The notes under the pieces are model-generated. The model was not told the origin of the DNA, searched no databases, and worked only from the letters and a program-made list of their open reading frames with translations. Below are positions 12,201-27,386 of a DNA stretch of 64,000 nt, piece after piece (position 1 is the stretch's first letter; every line of letters begins with the position of its first letter). Both the position numbers and the translations under genes were made by a program. Source of the stretch: Blastopirellula retiformator (GTDB taxonomy: Bacteria > Planctomycetota > Planctomycetia > Pirellulales > Pirellulaceae); assembly GCF_007859755.1 (NCBI RefSeq), contig NZ_SJPF01000005.1:124001-188000 (forward strand). Reading direction: 5' to 3'.

Positions 12201-15200
12201 TCGGTGGTCGAAATCGTACGCCCCAACGCATCGTAGGCGTAGGTCGTGACGCCGCGGGGATCGGTCATCGTGGCGACTTGGCCGGCGGAAGTGTAGGTGT
12301 AGCTGACCGTTTGGCCTTCGGTATCGATGGTGCTGGTCAGGCGACCGTCGCTGCCGTAGGTGTATGACGTGTACGGGACAGTGAGCGGCCCGGCCTCGTC
12401 AGGGTCGGGAAGCGTTTCCACAAGCAGCCGCCCCATCGCATCGTAGGTGTAACTAGTCTTCCGGCCGAGCGGATCGGTTTCGCTGGTCAGTTGCCCGGCC
12501 GCATCGAAGACGTAGCTGGTGATGGGAGCAGTCTGGCCGCCGGGGCCATCGGGATCGGCGGCGGTGATTTTGATCAACCGGCCGAGGGCGTCGTAGTCGT
12601 ACGTGGTGATGTTGCCTAGTTCGTCGGTCACGCTGTAGAGCTGCCCGGCGGCGTCGTAGGCGTATTCGATCTCCGGCGAGACGAGGGCGCCAGCGCCATC
12701 GGGATCGGCGAGAATCTCTTTCACCAGACGGCCGAGATCGTCGTAGTCATAACTGGTTACGCCGCCGTTGGGGTCGGTCATGCTGACGAGTTGGCCATAC
12801 TCGTCATATTCGTAGCTGGTGACGGGGGAAGTAAGCGGGCCGGCGTCATCGGGATCAGGGGAGGTAACTTCGATTTGTCGATTTAGCGCATCGTAGTCGT
12901 AGCTAGTTATCCGGCCGAGCGCGTCGGTTTCGGTCAACAGATTGCCGGCGTCGTCGTAGGTGTAGCTGGTAACCGGCGCGGTCTGCGATCCAGCGCCGTC
13001 CGGATCTGGTAGCGTTACGCTGGTGCGACGGCGGCGATTGTCATAGGCGTAGCTGGTGACGCCGCTGGAGGTGGTGACCGAAGCGAGCATGCCGACGGCG
13101 TTATAGGCGTAGATGGTGACGAACGCGGACAGAGCGCCAGCGCCATCGGGATCGGCGGAGGTTTCCTTAACCAGGCGATTTAGCTCATCGTATTCGTAGG
13201 TGGTCGTGCCGAGCGGCGTCGTCTCCGTTAGTAAATTTCCTTCGTGGTCGTAAGTGTAGCTGGTCGTGACGCCGTAGATATCGGTGATGCTGGCGATTCG
13301 CCCCATCACGTCGTACGTCGTCGTTTCGCTGAGCGACTGGAGCGTGACGACGGCGCCGTCGGGGTCGGGCAGCGTCGCTTCGATCAGGCGGCCGAGGTCG
13401 TCGTATGTATACGTCGTGACCCGGCCGAGCGGATCGGTCTCCGTGAGAATCTGACCGTTGTCGTTATAGGTGAAGGTGGTGACCGGTGAAGATTGCGGGC
13501 CGGCGCCATCGGGATCTGCCTCGGTGATCGAGGTGAGCAGCCCATCGGTATAGCCGTAGGTGGTGACGGCGCCAAGCGGATCGGTGATCGTCAGAACGTT
13601 GCCGTGGCTATCGTAGGTATAGCTGGTCACCGGCGCGGTAAGCGGCCCGGCGTCGTCGGGATCTTCTTCGGTCACCGAAGTGAGCGTGCCGCTCGAATTG
13701 TAAGCATAGGTCGTCGTGCGACTGTTAAGCGTTTCGGTCGCAATAAATCCCATCGCGTTGTAGGTATAGCTGATCACGCTCGCAACCTGCGGTCCCGCGC
13801 CATCGGGATCGGCCGATGTCATCGACGTCACTCGACTGAGAGCGTCGTAGGTATAGGTCGTCACGTTGCCCAGTTCGTCGGTCTCCGTCAGCATATTGCC
13901 GGCCGAATCGTAGGTCGCCGTCGTGTAGGCTTCGTCCGCCGTCCCGGCTGCGAAGGTGGTCTTGGTCAGATTGCCGTCTTCGTCGTATTCGTATTCGGTA
14001 ACGACGCCATCCGGAGCGGTCATCGAAGCCAAGAGCCCGATCGGCGCGTCGCCGGTTGTGGTGGGAGCAGGCGTGTAGGTGTACGTGTACGTGAGATCGT
14101 CCGTTTCGAGATTCACCAGATCATCGATCACGCCAACAACAGCCGTTTCGGACAGCAGCCACTTGTGGGTTGAGTCGTACGCGTAAAGCGAGATATTGCC
14201 GTTGGCATCGGTGTATTGAACCGGCTTGTTCCAGGTCGTGTGGTAAACCCAAGTTCGTACTGACGCGTCAGGGAGCGTTTCGGTCAGCATGTTGCCGCGG
14301 CTGTCATAGGTGTATTCGAACACCGATGAAGTCAGCGGTCCTGCGTCATCGGGATCAGCGTAGGTGATCTTGGTCGCCAAGCCATTGGCGTCGCGCTCGT
14401 AGATCGTTTCGTTCCCTTCGCCATCGATTTCACGAATCACGTTGCCGAGCGAGTCGTACTCGTATTGCATCGTGATTCCCTGACTGTCGGTGATCGTCTC
14501 GATCGACGTACCGTTGTCGACCAACGACTTCGTGGCGGAACTATACGTCGTGACCGATCCATCCGGCTCGGTCACCGTGGCGACTCGCCCCGTTGAATCG
14601 TAGGTGTACGAAGTGACCAGGCCGCCGGGCTTGGTGATCGACGTGATCTGGCCGCCGGAATTGTAGGCATAGGTTGTAACCGGAGCCGCGAGAGGCCCGG
14701 CGCCATCAGGATCTTCACGCGTGATCGTCTCGAGCAGTCCGTTGGTATCGTACGTCATCGACATCAACCAACCCTTGGTATTGGTGATGCTGGTCAGTTT
14801 TCCGCTGGTGTAAGCGTAGGTAAACGTATCTTCGGCCCCGGAAATGCCGGCCAAGACTTTTTTGCCGCCGCTGGTCGTATAGCTGTAGGTCGTTTCGTGA
14901 CCGTCCGCCTGCGTCCGACTGGTCTGATAGCCATCGGAGTCAAAAACGTAAGTATGGCCGTAACGACTGGTGTATTGATAGCCGCCGCCCGACAGCGCCC
15001 CAAACGATCCAAACTCCCCTTCCGGCATGTCGTATCCGCCCAATCCATCGCTGGCCAGGTAGATGGACCTCCCGTTGCCGAGGTTGAGGTCGATCCCATT
15101 GGTACGAACATTGGCTTTCATGACGCCATTGGTGGCGACGCCGCCTGTGCCAATATCGACTTGCCCCGTTTCTTCGTGTGGGCCATCTTCTAGCCAGTCG

Positions 15201-17305
15201 TTTGCGCTGGTCAGGGTGACCGTATAGTCGATGTTACCATCGCCACTTAGTGCGCTGCGAGCAATCGTAAACACCACCTTCCCCAGCAGATTCTCCGAGC
15301 GACTGCCGCTCAAATTGAAAGCGCTGGTGTCGCTGGTCGTCATTGCGACGCCGCCAATGCTGGCCGTGACGGTCAATGTATCGCTAATCTGCAGCGCAGG
15401 GTCGACCGACACTTCGACGACGAGTTGCACGGTATCCGCGGTGACCGTGTTTTGTACGTTGACGTCCAGATCGGTTCCCGAATCGCATCCGCACGAACAA
15501 TTGCAGACATTGGGATCAGTGCTCTCGGTATCTTGGTTGGCGATGGGATCTTGATCGTCCTCAGGACTGACCGAGGCAGCGTAGCCGGTTACCTCCCCGC
15601 TAATCGTGAAGTTGAAGGGATTCTCGTCGCTGTCGTTGGTGGTGAAAGAAAGCGTGCCAGAGAAAGTCCCGACCGCTGCGGCGTTCATTTGAACTTGGAA
15701 AGTCGTGCTGGAATTGGCTGCGACGGTTAGCGTCGTACTCGAGTTATTGTCAGAGTAGGCGCCAGGCGTCGTATCGCCGAAGTCTTTGAGCAGCGAAAAA
15801 CCGGTCGGCAGATTGATCTGATCCAATACGAGGTTGGCATTGCCGGTGTTGTTGACCGTAAACGTCTTGTAGACCGGTGTGCCTACCGTCGTATTTCCAA
15901 AAGATACGGAACCCGTATTGTCGGAAATATTCCCTGTCCCGCTTGTGCTGACGGCGATTTCGGGAACGTCGTAGACGGTTGCCGTTACGTAGAAGTTGAA
16001 GGGATTTTCGCCGTCCGTGTTATCATTTGTGCCGAAGGAAATCTCGCCGGCGAACGTTCCGGAAACCGAAGTATCGAGTTCGATTTCAAACGTCGTTGTT
16101 GTATTGGGCGCCAAACTCGTGCTGGTGAAATCATGTAACAGCGAGTACCCACTGGGCAAATTGATCGAATTAAGCGAGAGCACGCCTGTCCCGGTATTTC
16201 GGACCAGGAATTTTTTCGTCACCGTTGCCCCGGTCGGCGACGAGCCGAGCGAAATCACGTCGACGTTGTCGTCAATTTCGTCACCCGTCGCGGTCAGGTT
16301 AGGAAAGACCGCGATTTCCGGCACGCCCGCCACGCTTCCGCTAATCGTGAAGTTGAAGGGATTCTCGTCGCTGTCGTTGGTGGTGAAAGAAAGCGTGCCA
16401 GAGAAAGTCCCGACCGCTGCGGCGTTCATTTGAACTTGGAAAGTCGTGCTGGAATTGGCTGCGACGGTTAGCGTCGTACTCGAGTTATTGTCAGAGTAGG
16501 CGCCAGGCGTCGTATCGCCGAAGTCTTTGAGCAGCGAAAAACCGGTCGGCAGATTGATCTGATCCAATACGAGGTTGGCATTGCCGGTGTTGTTGACCGT
16601 AAACGTCTTGTAGACCGGTGTGCCTACCGTCGTACTTCCAAAAGATACCGAACCCGTATTGTCGGGAATATTCCCTGTCCCGCTTGTGCTGACGGCGATT
16701 TCGGGGGCTGGGCTGGGAGCCACGTAGGATAAAGTCACTACTCCGAAATCCCGACCATATAGAACAGGGCCAGTAGCATTGCTGGTAACGGCGTCCCATG
16801 TCAGTGTTGCATCACTAAAAGAAACGGAGGGATCGAAGTACAGGCGATGGCTCCATTGAGTTCCCGCTGCCATGGAGGTGTACTGATCAGATTCCTGAGA
16901 AACTCCGTCTAAAGTAAACCCTTCCACACCGACTCCGACACTATTAGCAACTTCTCCGGCAGTACTACTGTTCACCACTTCAAAAGTGATATAGCTACCG
17001 TTCGCGTCCGATTGGATATCCGATTGGGTAATGGTGTAGCTGGCCTCTGTGTTCGATACTTGAACTAGACCAGGGCCTGCTGGTGTGGTTGGAGGAATAA
17101 AGTTACCAGCAACATATGTACTTATATCAAATGCCAGTAGATCACGCCGGTCGAGCGTCTCGACCGCATGGTTTCGTTTGGTCGTGCCGATATGGCTCTT
17201 GCGGGACGCCCGAGGAGCTTCCACGAACTGAGAAATAGCCTGCTTCCACGAAGATTTCTTACGCTGACGCATGGGAGAAAGAAGCTCCAGAGAAGGATGC
17301 CGCAA
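9254..17305 (-). CDS. Giant RHS/YD-repeat surface protein with variable C-terminal domain
   Basis: A 2683-residue protein. Residues 48-59 (VETLDRRDLLAF) match the planctomycete LEPR-XLL N-terminal motif seen on very large exported proteins. Then come several choice-of-anchor-D/ASPM-Hydin-like beta domains (to about 570), a Cys-rich CNCSCGC patch (about 605), some 1,500 residues of YD repeats, the RHS core (DPLTGLQYNLNRWYDP, ending near residue 2348 at DPSGL), and about 335 unrelated C-terminal residues. That tail has a small hydrophobic segment and a terminal region (LSGHGVFLPGNG...) resembling the putative-adhesin Stv domain. RHS cores encapsulate or display the C-terminal effector. Start: TTG at 17305 behind AGGA, or ATG at 17272. 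Confidence 0.9.
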   Translation of the reverse strand: MRHPSLELLSPMRQRKKSSWKQAISQFVEAPRASRKSHIGTTKRNHAVETLDRRDLLAFDISTYVAGNFIPPTTPAGPGLVQVSNTEASYTITQSDIQSDANGSYITFEVVNSSTAGEVANSVGVGVEGFTLDGVSQESDQYTSMAAGTQWSHRLYFDPSVSFSDATLTWDAVTSNATGPVLYGRDFGVVTLSYVAPSPAPEIAVSTSGTGNIPDNTGSVSFGSTTVGTPVYKTFTVNNTGNANLVLDQINLPTGFSLLKDFGDTTPGAYSDNNSSTTLTVAANSSTTFQVQMNAAAVGTFSGTLSFTTNDSDENPFNFTISGSVAGVPEIAVFPNLTATGDEIDDNVDVISLGSSPTGATVTKKFLVRNTGTGVLSLNSINLPSGYSLLHDFTSTSLAPNTTTTFEIELDTSVSGTFAGEISFGTNDNTDGENPFNFYVTATVYDVPEIAVSTSGTGNISDNTGSVSFGNTTVGTPVYKTFTVNNTGNANLVLDQINLPTGFSLLKDFGDTTPGAYSDNNSSTTLTVAANSSTTFQVQMNAAAVGTFSGTLSFTTNDSDENPFNFTISGEVTGYAASVSPEDDQDPIANQDTESTDPNVCNCSCGCDSGTDLDVNVQNTVTADTVQLVVEVSVDPALQISDTLTVTASIGGVAMTTSDTSAFNLSGSRSENLLGKVVFTIARSALSGDGNIDYTVTLTSANDWLEDGPHEETGQVDIGTGGVATNGVMKANVRTNGIDLNLGNGRSIYLASDGLGGYDMPEGEFGSFGALSGGGYQYTSRYGHTYVFDSDGYQTSRTQADGHETTYSYTTSGGKKVLAGISGAEDTFTYAYTSGKLTSITNTKGWLMSMTYDTNGLLETITREDPDGAGPLAAPVTTYAYNSGGQITSITKPGGLVTSYTYDSTGRVATVTEPDGSVTTYSSATKSLVDNGTSIETITDSQGITMQYEYDSLGNVIREIDGEGNETIYERDANGLATKITYADPDDAGPLTSSVFEYTYDSRGNMLTETLPDASVRTWVYHTTWNKPVQYTDANGNISLYAYDSTHKWLLSETAVVGVIDDLVNLETDDLTYTYTYTPAPTTTGDAPIGLLASMTAPDGVVTEYEYDEDGNLTKTTFAAGTADEAYTTATYDSAGNMLTETDELGNVTTYTYDALSRVTSMTSADPDGAGPQVASVISYTYNAMGFIATETLNSRTTTYAYNSSGTLTSVTEEDPDDAGPLTAPVTSYTYDSHGNVLTITDPLGAVTTYGYTDGLLTSITEADPDGAGPQSSPVTTFTYNDNGQILTETDPLGRVTTYTYDDLGRLIEATLPDPDGAVVTLQSLSETTTYDVMGRIASITDIYGVTTSYTYDHEGNLLTETTPLGTTTYEYDELNRLVKETSADPDGAGALSAFVTIYAYNAVGMLASVTTSSGVTSYAYDNRRRRTSVTLPDPDGAGSQTAPVTSYTYDDAGNLLTETDALGRITSYDYDALNRQIEVTSPDPDDAGPLTSPVTSYEYDEYGQLVSMTDPNGGVTSYDYDDLGRLVKEILADPDGAGALVSPEIEYAYDAAGQLYSVTDELGNITTYDYDALGRLIKITAADPDGPGGQTAPITSYVFDAAGQLTSETDPLGRKTSYTYDAMGRLLVETLPDPDEAGPLTVPYTSYTYGSDGRLTSTIDTEGQTVSYTYTSAGQVATMTDPRGVTTYAYDALGRTISTTEPDPDGAGPLSAPVTTYAYNDDGQLESMSTSEGTTSYEYDDLGRTVKVTMPDPDGGGSLLAAWTIYEYDALGRTVSETDRLGHETSYDYDNLGRLIKKTDAEGGETEYTYDANGNRLTLTDPEENTTTWTYDLLNRMLTNTNELNDTRYYEYDAAGNLVEYTDRNGRVIEYEYDNLQRRISETWLDGVTTVNTITYGYDAASQLVSVADSTAAYDFTYDRLGRITSTEVDLAALGYDVVLDQAYDALNRRISLAAEIDGTDDFKNEYAYDFLNRLTQVNQAGQVGGNTVAEKRVDFTYDADDKYQFTSITRYADLAGTDTIATSTYGYDFADRLTSLTYVDSGSSTLAGYTWSYDSANRVTGFTVYGHSAEDATYNYDDTNQLEGADYTGTANDESYTYDDNGNRTNTGYSTGDNNQLLSDGTYNYTYDAEGNRLTRTNISTGDYEVFEYDHRDRLESVTKYDDSDVKQWKVDYGYDAFNQLVSREADTNGDGTVDQSGYFIIDNGQIVLVLDDTGDVEHRTLWGPQVDQLLADENGAGDLFWALTDNQNTVRDYVEYDDSTDVTSIVNHIAYDAVGKVASETNGSLDAFRFRYTGKYVDPLTGLQYNLNRWYDPATARWMSQDPIEFEAGDANLYRYVGNGHLSWVDPSGLVPAWPVRGSRYYGGTMITEDVEKGIHSPHVVISSFVVPAVIAGGAAAVAAGAIPAATSAGSSAMTSLNSATTSAYIYGSSAASTTTGKALITAGGGALAGLDYYYRYEEAGGHNGALNSYCTDMQRDPALFHFTWEQQLLRSGVRSASTSLADDIEDFYAGQQRRNSGTRSSLLGPDGKPLSGPSLNDTYKPLLGADGKPIHDPNILSGHGVFLPGNGTVKVPEGTSVTVYTNHGNTIFDDVGGKVDQGLTPDYYEIYGAQTYLPGAQMPNYTLTPPSGLHIQGNPTTVTRPYNLSSFLRPNQGNVKWSACVEEIESLESVGVKVNPEAP
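15598..15963 (-). repeat. Near-identical direct repeat, copy 2 (inside RHS gene)
   Basis: This 366-bp segment is repeated 741 bp away at 16339-16704 with only about three visible differences. It encodes one choice-of-anchor-D-like domain. The near identity contrasts with the diverged domain between the copies and indicates recent duplication or gene conversion. Confidence 0.85.
16339..16704 (-). repeat. Near-identical direct repeat, copy 1 (inside RHS gene)
   Basis: Partner of 15598-15963. The identity runs from the serine-glycine end of the domain to a shared AIV/PEIAVSTSGTGN start and breaks sharply on both sides. The offset of 741 bp keeps the frame (247 codons). Confidence 0.85.
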
Positions 17306-17663: not shown

Positions 17664-18794
17664 ATGTCTTCTTCTTCGGCCGCTTCGATTCAACAGCACT
17701 TTGCCGACCTGACCGATCCGCGCACGCGGAAGGTGACTTATCCGCTGGTCAACATCGTCACGATGTCGCTCTGCGCGGTGCTCGGCGGGGCGGATGATTT
17801 TGTCGCGATCGCCGATTGGGCGGAGGATAAGAAGGAGTGGCTTTCGAAGTTTCTCGACATGAGCACCGGCGTCCCTTCGCATGATCGTTTCAACGCGATT
17901 CTGGGCGCGCTGAAGCCGGCCGAATTCGAGAAGTGTTTGCTGAGTTGGATCACGGCTCTGCAAGAGATCACTGACGGACAAATCATCGCGATCGACGGCA
18001 AGACGTTGCGGCACAGTTTCGACGCCGCCAGCAGCAAGGCGGCCATTCACATGGTCAGCGCTTGGGCGACCGCCAACCATGTCAGCCTCGGTCAAGTCGC
18101 GACCGACGCCAAGAGTAACGAGATCACGGCGATTCCGAAATTGCTCGAAATCATCGAGGTTTCCGGCTGTTTGGTGACGATCGACGCGATGGGTTGTCAG
18201 AAAGAGATCGCCGCCAAGATCGTCGATGCAGGCGGCGATTATTGCCTGGCGATCAAAGGAAATCAGCGATACCTGCATCAAGCGATTCGCGATCACTTCG
18301 TCGCCGCGATGGAAGTCGACTTCAAGAAGCTGAAAGTTCATCGTCACGAAACGCATGAGAAAGGGCATGGCCGCGAGGAGTCGCGCTACTATTATCTCTG
18401 CCCGATCGATGCGGAGGACTTTCCGTACGCGAGCAAGTGGAAGAATTTGAAAGCGATCGGCATGACGATCAACATCGTGACGCAAAACGGGAAAGAGACA
18501 AGCGACGTCCGTTACTATATTGTGAGCAAATACCTCACGGGCAAACGCTTCGCCGAAGCGGTGCGTGGTCACTGGAGCATCGAGAATTCGCTCCACTGGC
18601 AACTCGACGTAACGTTCGGCGAAGACCAAAGCCGCATCCGCAAAGGACACGCAGATATTAACTTCAGCCTGCTGCGAAGAACGAGCTTGAGCCTCTTGAA
18701 GAACAACAAAACGGCGAAGGTGGGCGTGAAGAACAAGCGGCTAAAAGCGGGGCGGAACGACGCCTATCTGCTGGAAGGGTTGCTGGCGACGTGA
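17664..18794 (+). mobile_element. ISAs1-family transposase
   Basis: The 376-residue protein starts with the family's N-terminal DDE-associated region (FADLTDPRTRKVTYPL) and carries IIAIDGKTLRHS (first Asp), LVTIDAMGCQKEIA (second Asp), YCLAIKGNQ and GHWSIENSLHWQLDV (Glu). Length and motifs are complete, so it may be active. Terminal repeats were not found by eye. It sits between the RHS gene and the tRNA that precedes the prophage. Confidence 0.92.
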
Positions 18795-19007
18795 TTTATG
18801 GTGCGATCGCCGTGGGGAGGGTACCGGCCACACGTTCAGACAGTATCACCCAGACCAGCTTTCGGTCCGCGTTCCGGAATAGGTCGATGATGCTTCAGAA
18901 ATACAAGCTGTCCAGCGGGTACAGAACTGATACAGAATAGGTACGAAACGAGCAAAATCAGGGAAATCTGGAAGTCACAAACATGCAAAAATCCCCGCAT
19001 AATCGAG
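18795..19007. other. Short noncoding gap downstream of ISAs1-like element
   Basis: 213 bp with no supported gene. It contains the unrecognised right end of the insertion sequence and the 3' flank of the minus-strand tRNA. Confidence 0.3.
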
Positions 19008-19081
<74 letters not shown>

Positions 19082-19228
19082 AAAGTGCTTGTGTGCAATG
19101 AGTTGTAGCGGATCGTGGATCGCCAGGAATTCTCGTTTGACACCATGCTTGACACCGATTCACCATCTAGGCACACTGTTTAGGACAGTTTTCGACTTGT
19201 CCAATTCGCCTCTTCTGTCGGGTGTCAG

Positions 19229-20374
19229 GTGTCTAAGTCTAAAGGCGAAAAGCCATCTAAGCCATACCCCGAATTCCCTCTTTTCGCGCACGCATCTGGC
19301 CGGTGGTGCAAGAAGATCAACGGCAAGTTTCACTACTTCGGCCCCTGGCGCGATCATGAAGCGGCTCTGGCGCGATATCTGGAGCAGGTAGACTACCTCA
19401 AGGCCGGTCGTAAGCCACCAAACCCGGAAGCCAAGGGGCTGCGTCTGTGGGGATTATGCAATGTTTTTTGCGAAACTCAGGACTACAAGCTTTCAGTTGG
19501 GGAAATCGTTCGGTCAACACATCAAGACTACGTTGAGACATGCGAGCGGATAGTCAAGTTTTTCGGCCGAGACACGATCGTCGAACACCTGCAAGCGGCC
19601 GACTTTCAGCAACTGCGCGAGGAGATGGCGAAGACATTGGGGCTGCGAACTATCGGCAACGAGATCAACCGGATTCGCATTGTTCTCAAATACGCCTATG
19701 ACGAGGGGCTTATCGCTCATCCAGTTCGATTCGGCAACCAGTTCAAGCGGCCGCCAAAGTCTGCACTACGGCGCCAGAAGCAAGCCAAGGGACCGCAGAT
19801 GTTCACGGTCGAACAGGCTCGAGAATTGATACGTCGTGCAACTCCACCGATGCGGGCAATGCTGCTGCTGGCGGCAAATTGCGGATTTGGCAACAACGAC
19901 TGTGCGAGCCTGACGTTTCAATATCTCGATCTCAAAGGCGGCTGGCACACACTCCCGCGACCAAAGACAGGGATTGAACGCCGGTGTCCATTGTGGCCTG
20001 AGACAGTAGCGGCGATCGAGGCATATCTGCCGAGGCGCCCTAATCCGCAGCATGAAGAGGACCAGGACTTGGTTTTCATCACGAAGTACGGACTGCGATA
20101 TGTTCGCGATTCTGAAAACGCAGTCAGCAAGGAGTTCGCAAAGATACGAGGATTTGCCGGCACAAAAGGTACGTTTTACTGGATGCGGCACACGTTCGAA
20201 ACAATCGGCGGGGAGAGCCGTGATCAGGTCGCCGTCGACCATATCATGGGCCACGCGAAAGAGACAATGGCGACCGAATACCGAGAATGGATCGGTCCAG
20301 AACGGCTAGAGAGCGTCGTCAGCTTTGTGCGAGAATGGCTCTATCCAGTGCCTAGAATCGTCGTTTTGCCTTAG
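19229..20374 (+). CDS. int: Prophage tyrosine-type integrase
   Basis: A 381-residue phage integrase. The N-terminal part is a small DNA-binding domain (FHYFGPWRDHEAAL) and a core-binding segment. The catalytic domain has PRPKTG (Lys), WMRHTFET (second Arg, about 319), IMGHAKE (His, about 343) and TEYREW (Tyr, about 350). The position normally holding the first Arg reads NCGFGNNDCASL (217-228) with no Arg, a pattern I associate with planctomycete integrases. Start is a GTG at 19229. It catalyses insertion and excision of the element that follows; attachment sites were not identified. Confidence 0.9.
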   Translation: MSKSKGEKPSKPYPEFPLFAHASGRWCKKINGKFHYFGPWRDHEAALARYLEQVDYLKAGRKPPNPEAKGLRLWGLCNVFCETQDYKLSVGEIVRSTHQDYVETCERIVKFFGRDTIVEHLQAADFQQLREEMAKTLGLRTIGNEINRIRIVLKYAYDEGLIAHPVRFGNQFKRPPKSALRRQKQAKGPQMFTVEQARELIRRATPPMRAMLLLAANCGFGNNDCASLTFQYLDLKGGWHTLPRPKTGIERRCPLWPETVAAIEAYLPRRPNPQHEEDQDLVFITKYGLRYVRDSENAVSKEFAKIRGFAGTKGTFYWMRHTFETIGGESRDQVAVDHIMGHAKETMATEYREWIGPERLESVVSFVREWLYPVPRIVVLP

Positions 20375-20627
20375 CTATTCGCTCGTCAACCACACTTCGA
20401 TGCGATCGAGCCGGCGACTTTTCTTGCTTGCGGTTGCGTCGCAATTCTTCAAACGCCTCCCAGTCCGAGGCGCGAATCTTCCATCGCGGCTTTGTTGATC
20501 CGCGCCGAGCGACGTTAGTTGCCCGAAGCTCACCACTTCGAATCCACTCGTGAACCTTGTGTTCGTGTACGCCATAAGATTTAGCAACTTCGGCGGGCGT
20601 GAATCGGCGCTCGGCTATATCTCGCAT
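20352..20627 (-). CDS. Small HTH protein, excisionase-like
   Basis: About 91 residues starting at the ATG at 20627, chosen because AAGGAG stands 6 nt upstream. RFTPAEVAKSYGVHEHKVHEWIRSGELRATNV is a MerR/excisionase-type winged helix that reads a DNA site; a basic C-terminal tail follows. It is convergent with the integrase and overlaps its 3' end by 23 bp, the usual place for a recombination directionality factor. Function is inferred from fold and position. Confidence 0.7.
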   Translation of the reverse strand: MRDIAERRFTPAEVAKSYGVHEHKVHEWIRSGELRATNVARRGSTKPRWKIRASDWEAFEELRRNRKQEKSPARSHRSVVDERIAKAKRRF

Positions 20628-20679
20628 AATGCACTCCTTGGGTGAAGTGCATTTAATAGTAAGATTACTTCTCAGGCAA

Positions 20680-21024
20680 CTAGCTTTCGTGGATTTCTCC
20701 GAAATCGCTAGGCGCAAATTCTAATTCTAGGTCGATATTCCTGGCTAAATGGACGGCCCGTTCCTCGCCAGCGTCTTTTACAACGTCGCGAATATGCTTC
20801 GAGATCGTGTTTTTGAGTTCCTTCGGCTTTGATTCCAAGCTGGCGACGATCCCAAGAACGACATCTATGTCCGCACGGTCCATGTCCTTGGCTATTTCGT
20901 CCAGGGCAACCGACAGTTTGCGTAGATTCTTTGACCACCGGCGCACGTCTGCGCTAGTAAAAGGCCATCGCTCATTCGGCTTTCGCTTCTTTGGTTGCTG
21001 TTTTTCAGAACTTTTTTTGACCAT
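20680..21024 (-). CDS. Hypothetical prophage protein, divergent from early operon
   Basis: About 114 residues if started at the ATG at 21024 (AAAGAG 6 nt upstream); an ATG at 21063 would add 13 residues. It has a very basic N-terminus (KKSSEKQQPKKRKPNERW) and a helical middle, with no recognised domain. It is transcribed away from the early rightward genes across an operator-like promoter region, the place where lysogeny regulators sit, but I see no helix-turn-helix in it. Confidence 0.55.
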   Translation of the reverse strand: MVKKSSEKQQPKKRKPNERWPFTSADVRRWSKNLRKLSVALDEIAKDMDRADIDVVLGIVASLESKPKELKNTISKHIRDVVKDAGEERAVHLARNIDLELEFAPSDFGEIHES

Positions 21025-21108
21025 ACAAAACTCTTTCGCGGCAAAGACTTGCGAACTGTACATGGTCAATTCTCTCGGAAAGTAAAAGCACTTCGAGTAG
21101 CACAACTC

Positions 21109-21136
21109 TTGACACAATCCAGTCTGGATGTACAAA
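21109..21136 (+). promoter_or_regulatory. Sigma70-like promoter with palindrome in the spacer
   Basis: TTGACA (21109-21114) and TACAAA (21131-21136) are 16 bp apart. Inside the spacer lies a perfect 6-bp palindrome with 1-nt centre, ATCCAG-T-CTGGAT (21117-21129), which looks like an operator. It would drive the rightward early genes from about 21143. No matching repressor was identified. Confidence 0.6.
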
Positions 21137-21182
21137 TGGCTCAACAAGCGGACGAACAAGTAAAGTTACTTTGGAGGCAGGG

Positions 21183-21437
21183 ATGGTCAAGCGAATAGCC
21201 GCCCCAAGATTGGATACAAAGAAACGGCCAGGGCACCCCGAAGTTTACGACTGGGATAAGTGGTGCGAGGGCGGTTGGTATACGGCCACGCTCGGAAAAG
21301 ACATCGACGCCACCAACCCAGCAGCATTCCGGCAATCAATCAAGCGACAGGCGGGCAAGCGCGGTCTTGCGTTTGAATACAACCACGATGGCAAGGTTGT
21401 CGAATTCCGCTTCTTCAAGCCCGACGCCACCAAATAA
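21183..21437 (+). CDS. Hypothetical early prophage protein
   Basis: 84 residues. The ATG at 21183 is preceded by GGAGG at 5-nt spacing, preferred over an in-frame TTG at 21171. The protein is basic with an aromatic core (VYDWDKWCEGGWYTATLG) and a C-terminal beta-like FEYNHDGKVVEFRFFK. No family recognised. It is the first gene after the operator-bearing promoter. Confidence 0.65.
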   Translation: MVKRIAAPRLDTKKRPGHPEVYDWDKWCEGGWYTATLGKDIDATNPAAFRQSIKRQAGKRGLAFEYNHDGKVVEFRFFKPDATK

Positions 21438-21450
21438 CCAAGACACCTGG

Positions 21451-21549
21451 ATGTGGCCGCGAATGGAACGCGGCTTTCAAGGAAGGTCGCCTCACGCGAT
21501 CGACGACGATCGCGATGAGGCATGGAACACCATCGGAGGGCCGGCATGA
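21451..21549 (+). CDS. Possible 32-residue peptide
   Basis: A short frame starting MWPRMERGFQGRS and ending GGPA. It overlaps the next tiny frame by an ATGA. There is no good ribosome site before its ATG. Support is only its position in a chain of overlapping short frames leading to the csrA-like gene. Confidence 0.25.
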   Translation: MWPRMERGFQGRSPHAIDDDRDEAWNTIGGPA

Positions 21550-21608
21550 TCAGCCGGAAAAGTGATGCAGCCGGCCCCGCGTTGGGACTGGCACAACGGA
21601 ATTCATGA
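21546..21608 (+). CDS. Possible 20-residue leader peptide before the csrA-like gene
   Basis: The ATG at 21546 is well placed behind GGAGGG (about 6 nt) and overlaps the preceding stop. The peptide MISRKSDAAGPALGLAQRNS ends 10 bp before the TTG start of the csrA-like gene. It may act as a translational leader. No homology is claimed. Confidence 0.35.
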   Translation: MISRKSDAAGPALGLAQRNS

Positions 21609-21618
21609 GGAGCAACCA

Positions 21619-21846
21619 TTGCTAGTTCTAACACGCAAACCGGGCGAAACCATTCGCATCGGCGATGACATTGTGATCACGATCAATCAGCTAAGAGGTG
21701 GCCGCGTTCGCGTTGGCATCGACGCCCCAAAGCATGTTTCGGTCGCATGCGGTGAACTTGATCCGCCGTCGCAACAGCAGTTGCCACCGACGCCAACGGG
21801 GGCCTTTCAGCCGCCGCAGATCATGGGGTTCGCTGGCGCGGCCTAA
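21619..21846 (+). CDS. CsrA/RsmA-like RNA-binding protein lacking Arg44
   Basis: Starting at the TTG at 21619 (GAGGAG 6 nt upstream) the first 47 residues align one-to-one with E. coli CsrA without gaps. L4, R6, GE (9-10), IGD (14-16), G27, V30-R31 and APK (36-38) are kept. The C-terminal RNA-contact residues differ: position 43 is Ala, 44 is Cys and 45 is Gly, where the family has His-Arg-Glu. A 28-residue Pro/Gln-rich tail follows. CsrA dimers bind GGA sites over ribosome-binding sites and control translation. Loss of Arg44 predicts weakened or altered RNA binding. It lies just upstream of a hairpin switch, an initiator tRNA and a second CsrA-like gene. Confidence 0.85.
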   Translation: MLVLTRKPGETIRIGDDIVITINQLRGGRVRVGIDAPKHVSVACGELDPPSQQQLPPTPTGAFQPPQIMGFAGAA

Positions 21847-21868
21847 CGCCGCAAGACAATTAGATTTC

Positions 21869-21927
21869 GCACGGGAAGCGACAGTCAAGAGGCAGCCTCC
21901 CGTGCAATTTGTACGTGAGGCTTTTTT
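21869..21927 (+). promoter_or_regulatory. Terminator/antiterminator-like hairpin pair upstream of initiator tRNA
   Basis: Segment 21895-21905 (GCCTCCCGTGC) can pair upstream with 21869-21879 (10 of 11 positions) or downstream with 21911-21921 (10 of 11, one wobble). The downstream stem is followed directly by a T-run (21922-21927), making an intrinsic terminator; the upstream stem would prevent it. The initiator tRNA begins 8 nt after the T-run. This is the geometry of a transcription attenuator. Pairings were checked by hand; stabilities were not computed. Confidence 0.65.
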
Positions 21928-21935
21928 ATTAGCAC

Positions 21936-22010
21936 CGCCGCGTAGAGCAGTCTGGTTAGCTCGCTTGGCTCATAACCAAGAGGTCGCAGGTTCAAATCCT
22001 GCCGCGGCAA
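21936..22010 (+). tRNA. Initiator tRNA(fMet), prophage-encoded
   Basis: A 75-nt cloverleaf with CAU anticodon (loop CTCATAA). It has the initiator marks: an unpaired C1-A72 at the acceptor end (CGCCGCG against CGCGGCA), A11-T24 in the D-stem (GAGC/GCTC) and an AGTCTGGTTA D-loop. The anticodon stem is CTTGG/CCAAG, so only two of the three classical G-C pairs are present (position 29-41 is T-A). The T-arm is GCAGG-TTCAAAT-CCTGC. CCA is not encoded. It lies between two CsrA-like genes, all on the same strand. Confidence 0.92.
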
Positions 22011-22064
22011 TTCCAGCTCGTTGCTGGTCCCGATGGGTCTTAAGTCGGCCCATCAACCGCCCTG

Positions 22065-22100
22065 GAGGTGGTCAGTGTCGATAGCTGGCCACCTCTTTTT
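22065..22100 (+). terminator. Intrinsic terminator between initiator tRNA and second csrA-like gene
   Basis: An 11-bp stem (GAGGTGGTCAG with CTGGCCACCTC, one G-U), 9-nt loop, then TTTTT at 22096-22100. A smaller hairpin (GATGGGTC/GGCCCATC) lies just upstream of it, after the tRNA. Confidence 0.8.
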
Positions 22101-22110
22101 ACCCTCAACG

Positions 22111-22118
22111 CAAGGATG
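22111..22118 (+). promoter_or_regulatory. CsrA-type RNA site overlapping the csrA2 ribosome-binding site
   Basis: CAAGGATG matches the core of the published CsrA consensus (CARGGAUG) exactly and supplies the Shine-Dalgarno sequence for the ATG at 22125. It predicts autoregulation by one of the two CsrA-like proteins. A single short match is not proof. Confidence 0.45.
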
Positions 22119-22124
22119 CAAACC

Positions 22125-22379
22125 ATGTTTCTCGTTTTGTCGCGGCATGTAAATGAGCCGATCGTCTTCGATTTCGACAAGGTGATCCGCCTGATCGACA
22201 CCAACCCCGAAGAAGCCAAGGAGTCGCTTCGCCGTGTGTCGGTCATGCCTTTCGCGATCCGCGGAGACAAGGTTCGGTTTAGCATCGACGCCCACAAGAA
22301 CGTCAGCGTGCACCGCCAGGAAGTGATGGATGCGATCGATCGAGAGAACAAGCAGAAACAGGACCAGGCGGAAGTTTAA
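22125..22379 (+). CDS. CsrA-like protein with an inserted loop
   Basis: 84 residues from the ATG at 22125 (AAGGA 8 nt upstream; an ATG at 22116 is less well placed). FLVLSRHVNEPIVFDF matches the CsrA N-terminus, and VRFSIDAHKNVSVHRQEV matches its C-terminal strand with the RNA-binding VHRxE intact (Arg64 here). Between them an insertion of roughly 20 residues rich in charged helix formers (NPEEAKESLRR) replaces the short beta-hairpin. It is a second, structurally different paralogue of the gene at 21619, separated from it by an initiator tRNA and a terminator. Confidence 0.8.
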   Translation: MFLVLSRHVNEPIVFDFDKVIRLIDTNPEEAKESLRRVSVMPFAIRGDKVRFSIDAHKNVSVHRQEVMDAIDRENKQKQDQAEV

Positions 22380-22453
22380 CGAACGAACGGACGCTGCGGC
22401 TCATGCGAGCAACGGCCAGTGGGATGCTGGTCGGCGGTTGGACGCGATGGAAC

Positions 22454-22481
22454 GCCGGCGAGAAACGGATCGCTCGCCGGC
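22454..22481 (+). other. GC-rich hairpin after the second csrA-like gene
   Basis: A perfect 9-bp stem GCCGGCGAG/CTCGCCGGC with a 10-nt loop, followed by CTTTAC and not a T-run. It could be a weak terminator or an mRNA-stabilising structure in the 125-bp gap before the exonuclease gene. Confidence 0.45.
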
Positions 22482-22504
22482 CTTTACGAAAAAGGTGAAT
22501 TGCG

Positions 22505-23257
22505 ATGATCGTGTTTGATATTGAGACCGGGCCAGCTCCCGAAGAGACGCTACGGAAGTTTCTACCTGATTTGCCGGCCGCTCAGCATCCGGGTGATTTC
22601 GACCCGTCTTCGGTGAAGCTTGGTAACACCAAGGACCAGGCGAAGATCGACGCCAAGTATCGCGATGCCGCGGCCAAGCATGCCGAAGCGGTTGCCAAAT
22701 TCGAGGAGGACCAAAAGACGGCGGCCGACGACCACTGGGCGAAGTTTATCGATAAAGCGGCGCTTTCGCCCATCACTGGCCAGGTGGTCGCGATCGGCTA
22801 CTACTCGGCCAACAATGGGGCGTTCGTTCATCAGGACATTACGCAGAAGTCCGAGCGGGAAATGATAACCACCTTCTGGTCGCAATTCAGCAAGAACGAG
22901 CATTCGCACCGCAGTATGGTTGGCCACAATATCTTCGAGTTCGACCTGCCGTTTCTGGTTCGCCGTAGCTGGGCACTCGATATCGCGGTTCCGCCGAACG
23001 CTCGCAAGGGCCGCTACTGGTCGGACCTCTTCGTCGACACGCTCGACTATTGGAACCTTGGCCAGCGAATGAACAAGCCGGCGGCTAACTTCGACGCCCT
23101 GGCCGCGTTCTTCAAAACCGCCGGGAAGCCGGAAGGAACCGACGGTTCGCAGTTTTACGACATGCTGACGACCGACTACGACCGGGCGATCGCCTACCTG
23201 AAGTCGGACGTCGAGCAGCCGGCCGCGTGGATCGACGCGATGGGCATCACGCTTTAG
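22505..23257 (+). CDS. DnaQ/PolB-like 3'-5' exonuclease
   Basis: 250 residues with the three exonuclease motifs of the DEDD superfamily: FDIETG at the N-terminus (D5, E7), GHNIFEFDLPFL (about 139-150) and YLKSDV (about 231-236, the Exo III Asp). A helical insertion rich in Ala and charged residues follows motif I. It resembles the stand-alone predicted PolB-like exonuclease domain found in phages. It opens the replication and recombination block; a role in DNA end processing is inferred. Confidence 0.8.
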   Translation: MIVFDIETGPAPEETLRKFLPDLPAAQHPGDFDPSSVKLGNTKDQAKIDAKYRDAAAKHAEAVAKFEEDQKTAADDHWAKFIDKAALSPITGQVVAIGYYSANNGAFVHQDITQKSEREMITTFWSQFSKNEHSHRSMVGHNIFEFDLPFLVRRSWALDIAVPPNARKGRYWSDLFVDTLDYWNLGQRMNKPAANFDALAAFFKTAGKPEGTDGSQFYDMLTTDYDRAIAYLKSDVEQPAAWIDAMGITL

Positions 23258-23311
23258 CCCTTCCTGGCCGATTCTCTTTCGCTCCAATTCCATCGTTTCC
23301 AAGAGGTCAAT

Positions 23312-24187
23312 ATGTCCACAGCTACCGACGTCGCGGTCATGAAACAGCAGGCGAGCGACGTAGCGAAGCGAATGAATGCCGTCGAAATGCGGGAGTTCAT
23401 TGAATATTACGGCTCCCAGGTCGCACAGTCGCGGATGTTTGGCTGTGCAAATGAAGCCCAGGGCAAGGTTCTCGCCGGCATGTCGCTGCTAGAAGGCATT
23501 CCGATGATGGAGGTGATGCGATCGTACCACTTCCTCGACGGCAAGTTGTCGATGCGAGCCGACGCCATGCTGGCCGATTTTCATTCCCGTCACGGCGGCA
23601 AGTCGTTCATCGTGCGGCGAGACGCTGAAGCGGCGACGATCGAGCTTGAACGCGACGGCCGGAAGCAGGAGTTCACCTTCACTTGGGCAGAAGCCGAGCA
23701 AGAGCCGTTCGTTCGCGACAAGAACGGCGGCATCAAGAAGAACTACGCAACGCCCCGCGCTCGGATGCAGATGTTGTGGGCTCGCTGTGTCAGTGATGCC
23801 GTTCGGGCCTTTTGTCCGGAAGTCAATTCCGGCGCGTACACGCCGGAAGAGATCAGCGATTTTCGCGACGATGCGGTCGACGTGCCGTACGTGGTTTATC
23901 CAGCGAGCGGCGAGACGCAGCAAGCGGCGACGGAAACCGCACCGCAACCGCAGCAATCACAGCCGTCGAACGAACCGCTGGTCAGCGAGAAGGACGTGAT
24001 CGCAATCACGAACGTCGCTCGCCAAATCGAAACCTACGAACCCGGCTGGCTCGAAGGCAAGCTGAAACCGCTGCTCGCCAGCATGGGCAAACGTCTGGCC
24101 GAGCTGACCGCCGCCGAAGCGATCAGCCTCAAAGAAAAAATGGCCGCCAAGGCCAAGCAACTCTGGAACGAAGACGTTCCGTTTTAA
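23312..24187 (+). CDS. RecT-like single-strand annealing protein
   Basis: 291 residues. The order of motifs (NEAQGKVLAGMSLLEGIPMMEVMRS, LDGKLSMRADAMLADF, EFTFTWAEAEQ, YATPRARMQMLWARCVSDAVR, then GAYTPEEI) fits RecT-type annealing proteins, in which a glycine-rich first half is followed by an Arg-rich helix and a conserved proline-glycine-x-Tyr turn. A Gln/Ala-rich linker and a charged helical C-terminus follow. It lies between an exonuclease and an SSB-like gene, the usual phage recombination triad. Family call is from pattern only. Confidence 0.65.
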   Translation: MSTATDVAVMKQQASDVAKRMNAVEMREFIEYYGSQVAQSRMFGCANEAQGKVLAGMSLLEGIPMMEVMRSYHFLDGKLSMRADAMLADFHSRHGGKSFIVRRDAEAATIELERDGRKQEFTFTWAEAEQEPFVRDKNGGIKKNYATPRARMQMLWARCVSDAVRAFCPEVNSGAYTPEEISDFRDDAVDVPYVVYPASGETQQAATETAPQPQQSQPSNEPLVSEKDVIAITNVARQIETYEPGWLEGKLKPLLASMGKRLAELTAAEAISLKEKMAAKAKQLWNEDVPF

Positions 24188-24239
24188 CCAAATCACGTTT
24201 CTGTTTTTCCATCGCAACACGTTAGAAGGATTTTAGACC

Positions 24240-24842
24240 ATGGTTTCTTTCACCGCTCCGCAAAACATGGAAGTCTCCTCGTTTCTGGAACATGCCGGCC
24301 GCTATCACTTCCTGGTGACCGCTGTCGACGAAAACCCGGTCTCGAAGGATGGCAGCCAGATCAGCGCCATCAAGCTGGAATGCAAAGTGCTGGCCGGCGA
24401 CGATCCGACGCAAAACGGCAAGCAGTGGACCTGCTACCTGAACCTGCCGAATATGTCGCACAAAGACGGCGGCGAGTTCGCGTCGAAGGTTTTGTGCCGC
24501 GCCGCAAAGGCGCTGTGCGTTCTGCCCCAAGTGGCGCCGGGTCAACCGGTCAACATCGACTTCAACCTGGCTGTCGGTCGAACGTTTCTGGCGACGATCG
24601 AAAAGCGAGACGATCGAACCAGTCTCAAGGGCGGCGACATCTTTGCTCCGAATGATCCGGAAGCCAAGGAATACCCGAGAAACCAGCAGGTTCTCAGTCA
24701 GCAAGCGTCAGCCCAATCGCAAGCCGCTCCGGTCCAAGCTGCTCAGCCGGCGGCGTCCGCTCCGCAGCAGACTCAGCCGACTCAAGTCGCCCAGCAACCG
24801 GTTGGCGCCGGCGCTACGGCGGATCCGTTCAGCACGCTGTAA
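24240..24842 (+). CDS. SSB-like single-stranded DNA-binding protein
   Basis: 200 residues. The first 130 are compatible with an OB-fold of the DUF669 type (GRYHFLVTAVDENPVSK, KLECKVLAG, WTCYLNL). The rest is a Gln/Ala/Pro-rich disordered tail ending in DPFSTL, which recalls the acidic-hydrophobic tip by which SSBs recruit partners. AAGGAT stands upstream of the ATG. Position next to RecT-like and RecD2-like genes supports a role in replication and recombination. Confidence 0.65.
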   Translation: MVSFTAPQNMEVSSFLEHAGRYHFLVTAVDENPVSKDGSQISAIKLECKVLAGDDPTQNGKQWTCYLNLPNMSHKDGGEFASKVLCRAAKALCVLPQVAPGQPVNIDFNLAVGRTFLATIEKRDDRTSLKGGDIFAPNDPEAKEYPRNQQVLSQQASAQSQAAPVQAAQPAASAPQQTQPTQVAQQPVGAGATADPFSTL

Positions 24843-25076
24843 GGCGTGTTGCATCCGAGCCCCATCGGATTGAACCCTCTGCGGTTCGTGAAACGGGCGA
24901 GCTTAGCGGGGATTGCTTGCACGGTCATGCGTTGCGAAAGCACGTATGCCGAACTGGCCGGACGCCAGAGACGGCCGAGAGAGAACGGCGGACGCGGAAA
25001 GGGTAGCGGCCGAGTCGGCTGCAGCGGGTTCAAGTCCCGCGCCGCGTCTTTTGCAATTTGGCCCGAGGGAAAACCG
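24843..25076. other. Structured 234-bp intergenic region
   Basis: No start with a ribosome site opens a convincing gene before 25077. A hairpin (ATCCGA/TCGGAT, 24854-24871) follows the SSB-like gene, further complementary words lie around 24915-24945, and a tRNA-like fold occupies 24991-25048. Confidence 0.5.
24991..25048 (+). ncRNA. tRNA-like structure lacking a D-arm
   Basis: Three helices close perfectly: a 7-bp acceptor-like stem (GACGCGG with CCGCGTC), a 6-bp stem with 5-nt loop (GCGGCC-GAGTC-GGCTGC, one G-U), and a canonical T-arm (GCGGG-TTCAAGT-CCCGC). The D-arm is absent and the middle loop is too short for a normal anticodon loop. TTTT follows directly. It could be a degraded tRNA, a tRNA mimic, or a processed element that also terminates transcription before the helicase gene at 25077. 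Confidence 0.5.
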
Positions 25077-27386
25077 ATGTCGCGTCAAAAACTCGAAATC
25101 GTCGCCACCTACCTTAACGAGCAATTTCGGTTCGAGAATGCCAGTGGCGCCACAATTATCGGCAACATCAAGCTGGAAGGGGAAGCCCAAGCTGAACTGA
25201 TCCCCGGCGCCGACCTGCAGATCAAAGGGGAAGCTGACGACGACCTGGTTGCCGGCATGACCTACCGCTTCTACGGCCGCTGGGATTCCTATGAGAACAA
25301 GCGAACCGGCCGAAAATCGAACCAGTTTATCTTCACCACGTACACGCCAGCGACGCCCCTCTCGCGTCCGGGCGTGGTCCGATACCTGCAGCAGATCAAA
25401 GGAATCGGACCCAAGACCGCCGCCCAGTTGTGGACGAAGTTCGGGCCGAAGTCGATCCGGACGCTGCGAGAAGACCCCGAAGCGGCGGCGATCGCTTGCA
25501 GCCTGCTTCCCGGCGACATCGCGGCCGAGGCTTCCACCTGGTTGCGAGAGAACCAGAAGTTGGAGGAACTGACCGTTCACTTGATGGGCCTGTTCGATGG
25601 CCGAGGTTTTCCGAAATCGATCGCTCGCCTCTGCATCAAGGAATGGGGCAACACGGCGGCCGACGTCATCCAGGAGAACCCGTACAAACTGATGGCGTTT
25701 CGCGGCTGCGGCTTCAAGCGTTGCGACGCCCTCTGGTTGGATCTCGGTCTTCCCCGCGACGCTCTGGAACGGCAAATCTATTGTGCCTGGCACGCGATGG
25801 CCGAGGACAGCAACGGCCACACCTGGTTCCCGCTGCCGTTCGTGCTACAAAAGCTCGCCCGCGAAATCGGACCAAACCGCAACGACGCCGAAGCGTTGGC
25901 CGAGGCTCGCGACCAGGGGCTGATTGCTATCCAGCGGTATGAAAACGGGCAACTGGTCGACCAGGGTGGGGCCATCTTCCTGGCCGAAGCGAAGTATGCG
26001 AACCAAGAGCAGCGCGTTGCCGACGTGATCCAGGAGCTGGAATCGAATCCCGTTCCCGCGATCTGGCCAAACCTATCCCTGGCCGAGTCGATCTCCGACC
26101 ACCAGTGCGAACGGGCCTCCCTCGCTCTAACAGGCCGGCTCTGCATTCTCGGCGGTGGTCCTGGTACCGGAAAAACCTACGTGTCGGCCAACATCGTCAA
26201 GCTGCTGGAGTCGGATCTATCGGCGTCGATCGCCGTGGCCGCTCCGACTGGTAAGGCGGCGAACCGCGTCAGCGAAGCGATGGCGAGCTATGGCATCAAC
26301 TTACGGGCGTCGACGATTCACAGCTTGCTCGGCATCCGGGCCAGCACGCTGGGGAGTTTCGAGTTTGAATACAACGCCCTAAATCGCCTGCCGTTTAAAT
26401 ACGTGCTGGTTGACGAAGCTTCGATGGTCAGCACCGATCTGATGGCATCATTGCTTTCGGCGCTGGCGTCGGATGCTCACCTGCTGTTGGTTGGCGATGT
26501 GAACCAGTTGCCGCCGGTTGGACATGGCGCCCCGCTGCGAGATCTGATCGCCGCCAACATGCCATACGGTCAGTTGGAAGAAATCCGCCGCAACTCGGGG
26601 ACGATCGTCACGGCGTGTCATGAACTACGAACCACGGGCTGGTTTAATCACGATCGCGGCGTCGACATTGAGAACGGCAAAAATTTACGCGTCGTTCGCT
26701 GCGATGACAATGATACGATCCGCCAAAAACTACTGGCCGGCATCGACATCGCCAAGGACAAAAACCTCGATCCGATCTGGGACGTGCAGGTTCTGACCGC
26801 GCTGAACGACAAGTCGGACGTTAGCCGTCAGCCGCTCAACAAGTTTCTACAGCAACATCTATCGCCTTCTCCAGTCGTCGAAGGTTCGGTATTTCGTCCC
26901 GGCGACAAGGCGGTCTGCCTGAAGAACGGCGTCTACACGCTGCACGGCGATGACCAGGGCGAGACGTTTGTCGCCAATGGCGAACTGGCCGAGGTGGTGG
27001 CGATCGAGCCGAAGTTCTTCGTGATGCGGCTGCTGACGCCAGAGCGAACGGTTCGCGTCCCCCGCGGCAAGCAAGAGGCGGACGGCGAAGGTGGCAAAAG
27101 CAAGAGCGGCGCCGGCTGCGACTGGGATCTCGGCTACGTGCTGAGCGTCCACAAATCGCAGGGCTCCGAGTGGCCGTTCGTCTTCACGGTTGTTGACGAC
27201 GCCGGCGCCCGCGTGGCTAGTCGCGAGTGGGTTTACACCGCCATGAGCCGAGCGAAAAAGCTGCACCTGTTTTTCGGCAAGGAAGAGACGCTGAGGCGGT
27301 TCTGCCGGCGGGTGGCGATCGGCAAGCGAAACACGTTTTTGAAAGAGCGGATTTTGGCCAACCAAACGCAGGGAGTGACGGCATGA
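25077..27386 (+). CDS. RecD2-like ATP-dependent DNA helicase
   Basis: 769 residues from the ATG at 25077; a longer frame from 24846 would run through the tRNA-like element and is rejected. The N-terminus has the small OB-like domain of RecD2, then a helix-hairpin-helix (GIGPKTAAQLWTKFG, about 107-121). The SF1B motor follows: GGGPGTGKTY (about 360), VLVDEASMV (about 442), GDVNQLPPVG, and C-terminal VHKSQGSEW (about 690) and YTAMSRAK. RecD2 unwinds DNA 5' to 3'. Length and motif set are complete. Overlaps the next gene by 4 bp. Confidence 0.92.
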   Translation: MSRQKLEIVATYLNEQFRFENASGATIIGNIKLEGEAQAELIPGADLQIKGEADDDLVAGMTYRFYGRWDSYENKRTGRKSNQFIFTTYTPATPLSRPGVVRYLQQIKGIGPKTAAQLWTKFGPKSIRTLREDPEAAAIACSLLPGDIAAEASTWLRENQKLEELTVHLMGLFDGRGFPKSIARLCIKEWGNTAADVIQENPYKLMAFRGCGFKRCDALWLDLGLPRDALERQIYCAWHAMAEDSNGHTWFPLPFVLQKLAREIGPNRNDAEALAEARDQGLIAIQRYENGQLVDQGGAIFLAEAKYANQEQRVADVIQELESNPVPAIWPNLSLAESISDHQCERASLALTGRLCILGGGPGTGKTYVSANIVKLLESDLSASIAVAAPTGKAANRVSEAMASYGINLRASTIHSLLGIRASTLGSFEFEYNALNRLPFKYVLVDEASMVSTDLMASLLSALASDAHLLLVGDVNQLPPVGHGAPLRDLIAANMPYGQLEEIRRNSGTIVTACHELRTTGWFNHDRGVDIENGKNLRVVRCDDNDTIRQKLLAGIDIAKDKNLDPIWDVQVLTALNDKSDVSRQPLNKFLQQHLSPSPVVEGSVFRPGDKAVCLKNGVYTLHGDDQGETFVANGELAEVVAIEPKFFVMRLLTPERTVRVPRGKQEADGEGGKSKSGAGCDWDLGYVLSVHKSQGSEWPFVFTVVDDAGARVASREWVYTAMSRAKKLHLFFGKEETLRRFCRRVAIGKRNTFLKERILANQTQGVTA

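Follow-up and report, generated by a model that had tools for sequence, protein, structure and literature searches.

Phage-borne csrA genes and phage-borne initiator tRNAs are both already known, each separately. Thirty phages carrying csrA have been reported (PMC7366521), and the csrA genes of Pseudomonas phage F116, of Vibrio phages and of others resemble those of the present locus in being borne by a phage, but the consulted parts of that paper give no link to a tRNA. The same source describes the order alaS-lysA-csrA-tRNASer-tRNAArg in Pseudomonas chromosomes, where csrA likewise lies near tRNA genes; that neighborhood is, however, chromosomal rather than phage-borne, and its tRNAs are elongators. 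As to phage initiator tRNAs, a plain sequence match to the tRNA region of the present locus, irrespective of the initiator marks and of CsrA, occurs in 133 of 50,697 phage records, and several of the 40 listed are annotated as tRNA-Met, but we found no description of such a tRNA beside csrA. In the same collection, 79 of the 50,697 records match the first of the two CsrA proteins discussed here at E ≤ 0.01, all of them with less than 60% identity. Among the best-ranked papers, a set outside which most subscription papers fall, no title or abstract opening describes a phage with csrA next to an initiator tRNA.

At the protein level, a close comparison is RsmN (RsmF) of Pseudomonas aeruginosa, in which a helical insert of 16 residues separates beta 2 from beta 3 and Arg62 is the equivalent of Arg44 (PMC3791407). 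The R62A substitution lowers the RNA affinity more than 1000-fold, and the same variant still restored the swarming of an rsmA mutant (PMC3791407), so that loss of this arginine need not abolish function.

The locus under study lies in a window, that is, the whole stretch of 64,000 nucleotides analyzed here, which corresponds to positions 124001-188000 of contig C5 of a 6.2-Mb genome (G000). Three genes stand on its plus strand within 760 bp, all at the places given by the first-pass annotation: a CsrA-family gene (csrA1, 21619-21846), an initiator-type tRNA-Met (21936-22010) and a second CsrA-family gene (csrA2, 22125-22379). Their setting in a prophage, also proposed there, is borne out by an identical 41-base repeat (100% match) at window positions 19042-19082 and at C5:188377-188417 (equivalent to window 64377-64417, just past the window end), which brackets about 45.4 kb. 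We assign this interval to a temperate prophage because, besides the flanking repeat, it has genes for an integrase, an excisionase-like protein, a terminase, a portal and tail proteins. The left repeat (attL, 19042-19082) is the 5' half of a host tRNA(CAT) gene on the minus strand (19007-19081), which ARAGORN and Rfam recognize and which is used as the attachment site; with G1-U72 and C11-G24 by reading, this tRNA is not of the initiator type.

Next to the attachment site are a tyrosine integrase (19229-20374, plus strand) and an excisionase or MerR-like regulator (20352-20717, minus strand). The cassette follows, upstream of a plus-strand module that encodes a DNA polymerase B-like 3'-5' exonuclease (22505-23257), a RecT-like single-strand annealing protein (23312-24187), a conserved early protein of unassigned family (24240-24842) and a RecD2-like helicase (24846-27386). 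The exonuclease, whose closest named relatives come from planctomycete genomes, is used below as the marker of the phage lineage; on the strength of these relatives the host, too, is taken to be a planctomycete, in line with the first-pass annotation. Next to the prophage stands an open frame of 2683 residues (9254-17305, minus strand) in which YD/RHS-like repeats can be seen by eye. Between the two, an open frame at 17664-18794 (plus strand) resembles an ISAs1-type transposase. Its right end is repeated at 12 other places of the host genome with 95-98% identity over about 65 bases, which makes an insertion element present in many copies probable.

The two proteins belong to the RsmA/CsrA family, as had been proposed, with scores of 71.4 bits for CsrA1 and 39.6 bits for CsrA2 (over residues 39-71) against Pfam PF02599, whose curated cut-off is 27. 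CsrA1 begins with a TTG codon preceded by GAGGAG and differs from the family in its proline-rich tail and, in agreement with the earlier reading, in the loss of Arg44. In a set of 116 different CsrA domains, drawn from the loci gathered at E ≤ 1e-5, this column holds arginine in 114 and a gap in one, and CsrA1 alone has a cysteine.

CsrA2 keeps the VSVHR motif, the arginine of its NVSVHRQE stretch (R64) being the Arg44 equivalent in a column that does not vary across a 12-row alignment, and it departs from the family by an insert; both features had been noted from the sequence. The insert is estimated at about 19-20 residues, because the 60 positions of PHROG 9500 ("CsrA-like regulator") stretch over residues 3-81, and it is placed before the predicted beta 3, in the usual naming of the CsrA strands, because the PDB sequence matches start at residues 36-39, within beta 3 of CsrA. 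CsrA2 resembles RsmN in having extra residues, possibly helical, before beta 3 and an Arg44 equivalent shifted to position 64 (62 in RsmN). The likeness is not complete: an AlphaFold2 model with a mean pLDDT of only 63.5, and hence of low confidence, places helices at residues 28-37 and at the C-terminal residues 64-82, the latter unlike RsmN, and CsrA2 is without the Gly-Ile that is reported to close the inserted helix in RsmN proteins (PMC3791407). None of the 20 PDB sequence matches of CsrA2 is named RsmN. CsrA2 is matched in 76 of 294 genomes of the phylum, and a single-query scan of IMG/VR found no relatives; no relative with the insert was seen, since the non-self matches listed cover only the second half of the protein, from residue 29 on.

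The gene between the two is called tRNA-Met(CAT) by ARAGORN and scores 66.7 bits (E 2.5e-12) against the Rfam tRNA family. Bacterial initiators are marked by the absence of a Watson-Crick pair at 1-72, by a purine 11-pyrimidine 24 pair and by three G-C pairs at 29-41, 30-40 and 31-39. Read by eye from the ARAGORN drawing, the prophage tRNA has a C1-A72 mismatch, an A11-U24 pair and a CAU anticodon in a CUCAUAA loop, while its anticodon stem contains U29-A41, G30-C40 and G31-C39. It therefore follows the initiator rules at 1-72 and 11-24 and fails the three-G-C rule at 29-41, with two of the three expected pairs. The third G-C pair is absent also from the host's own initiator (C2:786731), which has C1-C72 and A29-U41. 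An elongator identity of the prophage tRNA is rejected on account of the C1-A72 mismatch and the A11-U24 pair, and the initiator assignment of the first-pass annotation is upheld. The host initiator is the only one among 64 ARAGORN calls in 42 host stretches (64 of 65 tRNA places were read, C4:217275 being left out), and an arm-pattern search of the genome matched only this gene and the prophage copy.

RNA folding predicts two terminator-like hairpins around the tRNA, both on the plus strand and each followed by a T run. The first (21894-21927) ends just 5' of the tRNA and would compete with an alternative hairpin at 21869-21905 predicted in the fold of 21843-21915; the second and strong one lies 3' of the tRNA (22064-22100; fold of 22011-22124, z -4.1). 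A terminator scan reported neither of the two. Expression of the tRNA is considered putative, because these hairpins flank it and a scan for sigma-70-like promoters over 20600-24900 of the plus strand found none. Further downstream, a predicted GCA-AGGA-TGC hairpin (22110-22119, plus strand) coincides with the Shine-Dalgarno sequence of csrA2 and resembles the consensus hairpin bound by CsrA. Such hairpins occur at only 2 of the 43 start regions examined, those of csrA2 and of the conserved early protein at 24240 (there an RGGA hairpin), and for this reason self-regulation of csrA2 is taken as suggestive only.

In our reading, to which we give about even chances, the cassette holds two separate accessory devices that act on translation initiation and that one phage lineage has repeatedly kept. 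It would be an accessory stretch that opens the early, recombination part of a temperate phage genome. Judged from its sequence, the tRNA most likely functions as an initiator, which would be charged, formylated and used alongside the product of the host's single gene. As the phage adds its own gene, we propose that the supply of initiator could rise with phage copy number and that the phage could rely less on the host tRNA. CsrA2 is most likely an RsmA/RsmN-like regulator that would bind RNA at mRNA start sites, and the AGGA hairpin over the Shine-Dalgarno sequence of csrA2 may allow it to control its own synthesis. CsrA1, lacking Arg44, is most likely a poor RNA binder; if active, it would pair with intact CsrA subunits and blunt them, a form of dimer poisoning.

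The part of this reading that concerns the lineage was examined through the exonuclease. The search gathered 4 viral loci with a single sequence as query, 59 genome loci and 30 viral loci, three of the latter overlapping earlier ones. In the same class, 4 of 397 genomes, the present one included, match the exonuclease profile at E ≤ 1e-15; across the phylum, 59 of 392 genomes match an earlier exonuclease profile at E ≤ 0.001, mostly weakly. A CsrA is present in 7 of the 90 exonuclease loci examined (L117, L125, L174, L176, L178, L180 and L181), or in 9 of 92 exonuclease-bearing loci when L258 and L290, both found through their CsrA, are counted; two related prophages, G439 and G705, have one as well. 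The stretches examined of G668 (a class match) and G161 (a phylum match) have neither CsrA nor tRNA.

Several of these relatives carry an initiator-like tRNA, at differing sites. In G439 it lies between the exonuclease and RecT (U1-G72, A11-U24; Rfam 55 bits), although it is perhaps not an ordinary tRNA, because G18G19 is absent and position 55 is G by reading. In G705 it stands between RecT and RecD2 with C1-U72, and in the viral locus L180 it is upstream of CsrA with A1-U72. The L258 record has one about 26 kb from its CsrA, with C1-C72 but C31-G39, and the L175 record has one with G1-A72 by reading, while a search of 40.4 kb of its 54.4 kb gave no CsrA. Most CsrA-bearing relatives are without an initiator-like tRNA, and the 12 viral loci first found with CsrA1 yielded no ARAGORN tRNA in the stretches examined. 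The adjacency of CsrA and initiator-like tRNA thus recurs and yet is not required.

Two further calls in this lineage were discounted: a tRNA-like piece in L174, seen by ARAGORN only and not by Rfam at E ≤ 5, and an ARAGORN "tRNA-Asp" in L181 that has no Rfam match at E ≤ 1. Beside the G705 initiator, ARAGORN makes a second CAT tRNA-like call (L520:5044-5124, minus strand), which is absent from Rfam at the gathering score. The L258 record also has an odd tRNA-like match of 101 nt (L258:11409-11509; 36.5 bits), located between an early gene and the RecD2-like helicase and without an ARAGORN call.

We have also considered the possibility that the three genes form one functional unit, in which the phage CsrA would hold down host or early mRNAs and the extra initiator tRNA would give phage mRNAs an advantage, so that initiation is switched from host to phage. 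The compact placement of all three genes on one strand within 760 bp is what such a unit would look like, and the statistics of the locus stretches point the same way: an initiator-like tRNA is present in 4 of 12 CsrA-positive and in 0 of 85 CsrA-negative exonuclease loci (p=1.4e-4), where the 12 include the index case as well as L258 and L290, and many of the 85 are distant (Bacteroidetes) or incomplete. With the index case left out, the proportion among the CsrA-positive loci is 3 of 11 (p=0.0012), and when the comparison is confined to close relatives, again without the index case, it is 3 of 10, with none among the 16 CsrA-negative loci (p=0.046); all these p values are confounded by host group and by the way in which the loci were discovered. 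At the level of whole records (16 scanned, 12 belonging to the exonuclease lineage) the link is gone, since an initiator-like tRNA is found in 2 of 7 records with CsrA and in 1 of 5 in which CsrA was not found, L175 among these five having been searched over 40.4 kb and the other four only at the locus.

Phages with different neighboring genes bear on the same question. In L302, CsrA lies about 450 bases downstream of an initiator-like tRNA (923-995; A1-C72; Rfam 64.9 bits) on the same strand, and in L420 the two are about 1.8 kb apart, also on one strand (A1-C72 by reading, an odd D arm; Rfam 38.3 bits). In both cases the pair is found near tail-like genes, among neighbors unlike those of the present prophage, and in the stretches examined CsrA is the only protein that matches this prophage. 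Some of the other genes of L302 and L420 are distantly related to each other. These two cases favor a unit and may represent a second origin of the pairing. Among 82 viral CsrA loci, seven have an ARAGORN tRNA and two have a GGCTCATAACC arm: L300 carries an initiator (C1-U72) about 4.4 kb from CsrA, and L239 carries a tRNA-Met that we discounted as an initiator because with G1-C72 it looks like an elongator.

Scans made irrespective of CsrA do not reinforce this picture. A strict initiator pattern had no matches; the W29/W41 initiator-arm pattern gave 3 stretches with CsrA (L302, L420 and L413, which is the contig of L180) among at least 120 viral stretches, as against 1 of 54 for a control tRNA-Thr pattern, that one being L413 again. 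The control shows no general tie between CsrA and initiator tRNAs. The hairpin with T run that precedes the tRNA in the window was also sought elsewhere: under a strict test it is found in the window, L180 and L302, and in G705 only when a longer stretch is taken, while it is absent in G439, L300 and L420. Among the W29/W41 matches listed, it precedes 8 of 118 initiators (L302 and L413 included), compared with 11 of 1200 random sites.

The proposed conservation is only partly supported: CsrA and an initiator-like tRNA do recur together, in related prophages, in viral contigs and in some phages with other neighbors, separated by 0.45-4.4 kb or else by about 26 kb, but none of the other loci examined repeats the order CsrA-tRNA-CsrA exactly, and whole records show no link. 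On balance, we regard a single unit as unlikely. A more far-reaching version appears still less probable to us, namely that planctomycete temperate phages take over initiation by raising the initiator pool in hosts with a single initiator gene and by setting access to start sites through two CsrA proteins of their own, of which the Arg44-less one would poison host CsrA dimers and the RsmN-like one would impose phage specificity, a switchable terminator before the tRNA linking the outputs of tRNA and CsrA.

A different explanation separates the genes altogether and sees in the phage tRNA a replacement for a host initiator cut by a VapC-like RNase, with the csrA genes as unrelated neighbors. A VapC toxin that acts on initiator tRNA has been published (PMC4105405), and the phage and host initiators do have unlike anticodon stems, at 28-42 and 29-41. 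Both, however, carry the same anticodon loop, CUCAUAA, and the host genome contains a single PIN-domain match. Phage tRNAs have been proposed to evade anticodon nucleases, but for VapC-LT2 of Shigella phages are reported generally to avoid encoding its target, tRNA-fMet (PMC10264068). We therefore find counter-defence improbable as the reason for this gene.

That the tRNA is a decaying passenger, gained by imprecise excision or recombination and accompanied by an equally decaying csrA1, would suit the lost Arg44 of CsrA1, the D-arm and T-loop oddities of the G439 and L420 tRNAs and the L174 piece that Rfam does not see, but it is quite unlikely in view of an intact window tRNA of 66.7 bits, of initiator-like tRNAs recurring at differing sites of related phages and of an attachment site in a different tRNA gene, which rules out an origin as an att-site relic.

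Returning to the two separate accessory devices, the locus is of interest because, in the passages of the literature consulted, neither phage csrA nor phage initiator tRNA has a settled role. A cassette that contains both, with a natural Arg44-less CsrA beside an intact one and in a host for which a single initiator gene was found, makes both roles testable by simple deletions. Should CsrA and the tRNA act jointly, this would be a route for phage takeover of the start of translation.

The host genome itself is rich in CsrA domains, with 13 places, CsrA1 and CsrA2 included, far more than in E. coli, which has one CsrA. One host open frame of 137 residues (L061:9436-9846; G000:C1, about 449436-449846) carries two CsrA domains in tandem and is possibly a single-chain CsrA dimer. 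Two others, of 277 and 264 residues (L059:9233-10063 and L060:14672-15463), have an N-terminal CsrA domain joined to what looks, by sequence impression, like a response-regulator-receiver domain.
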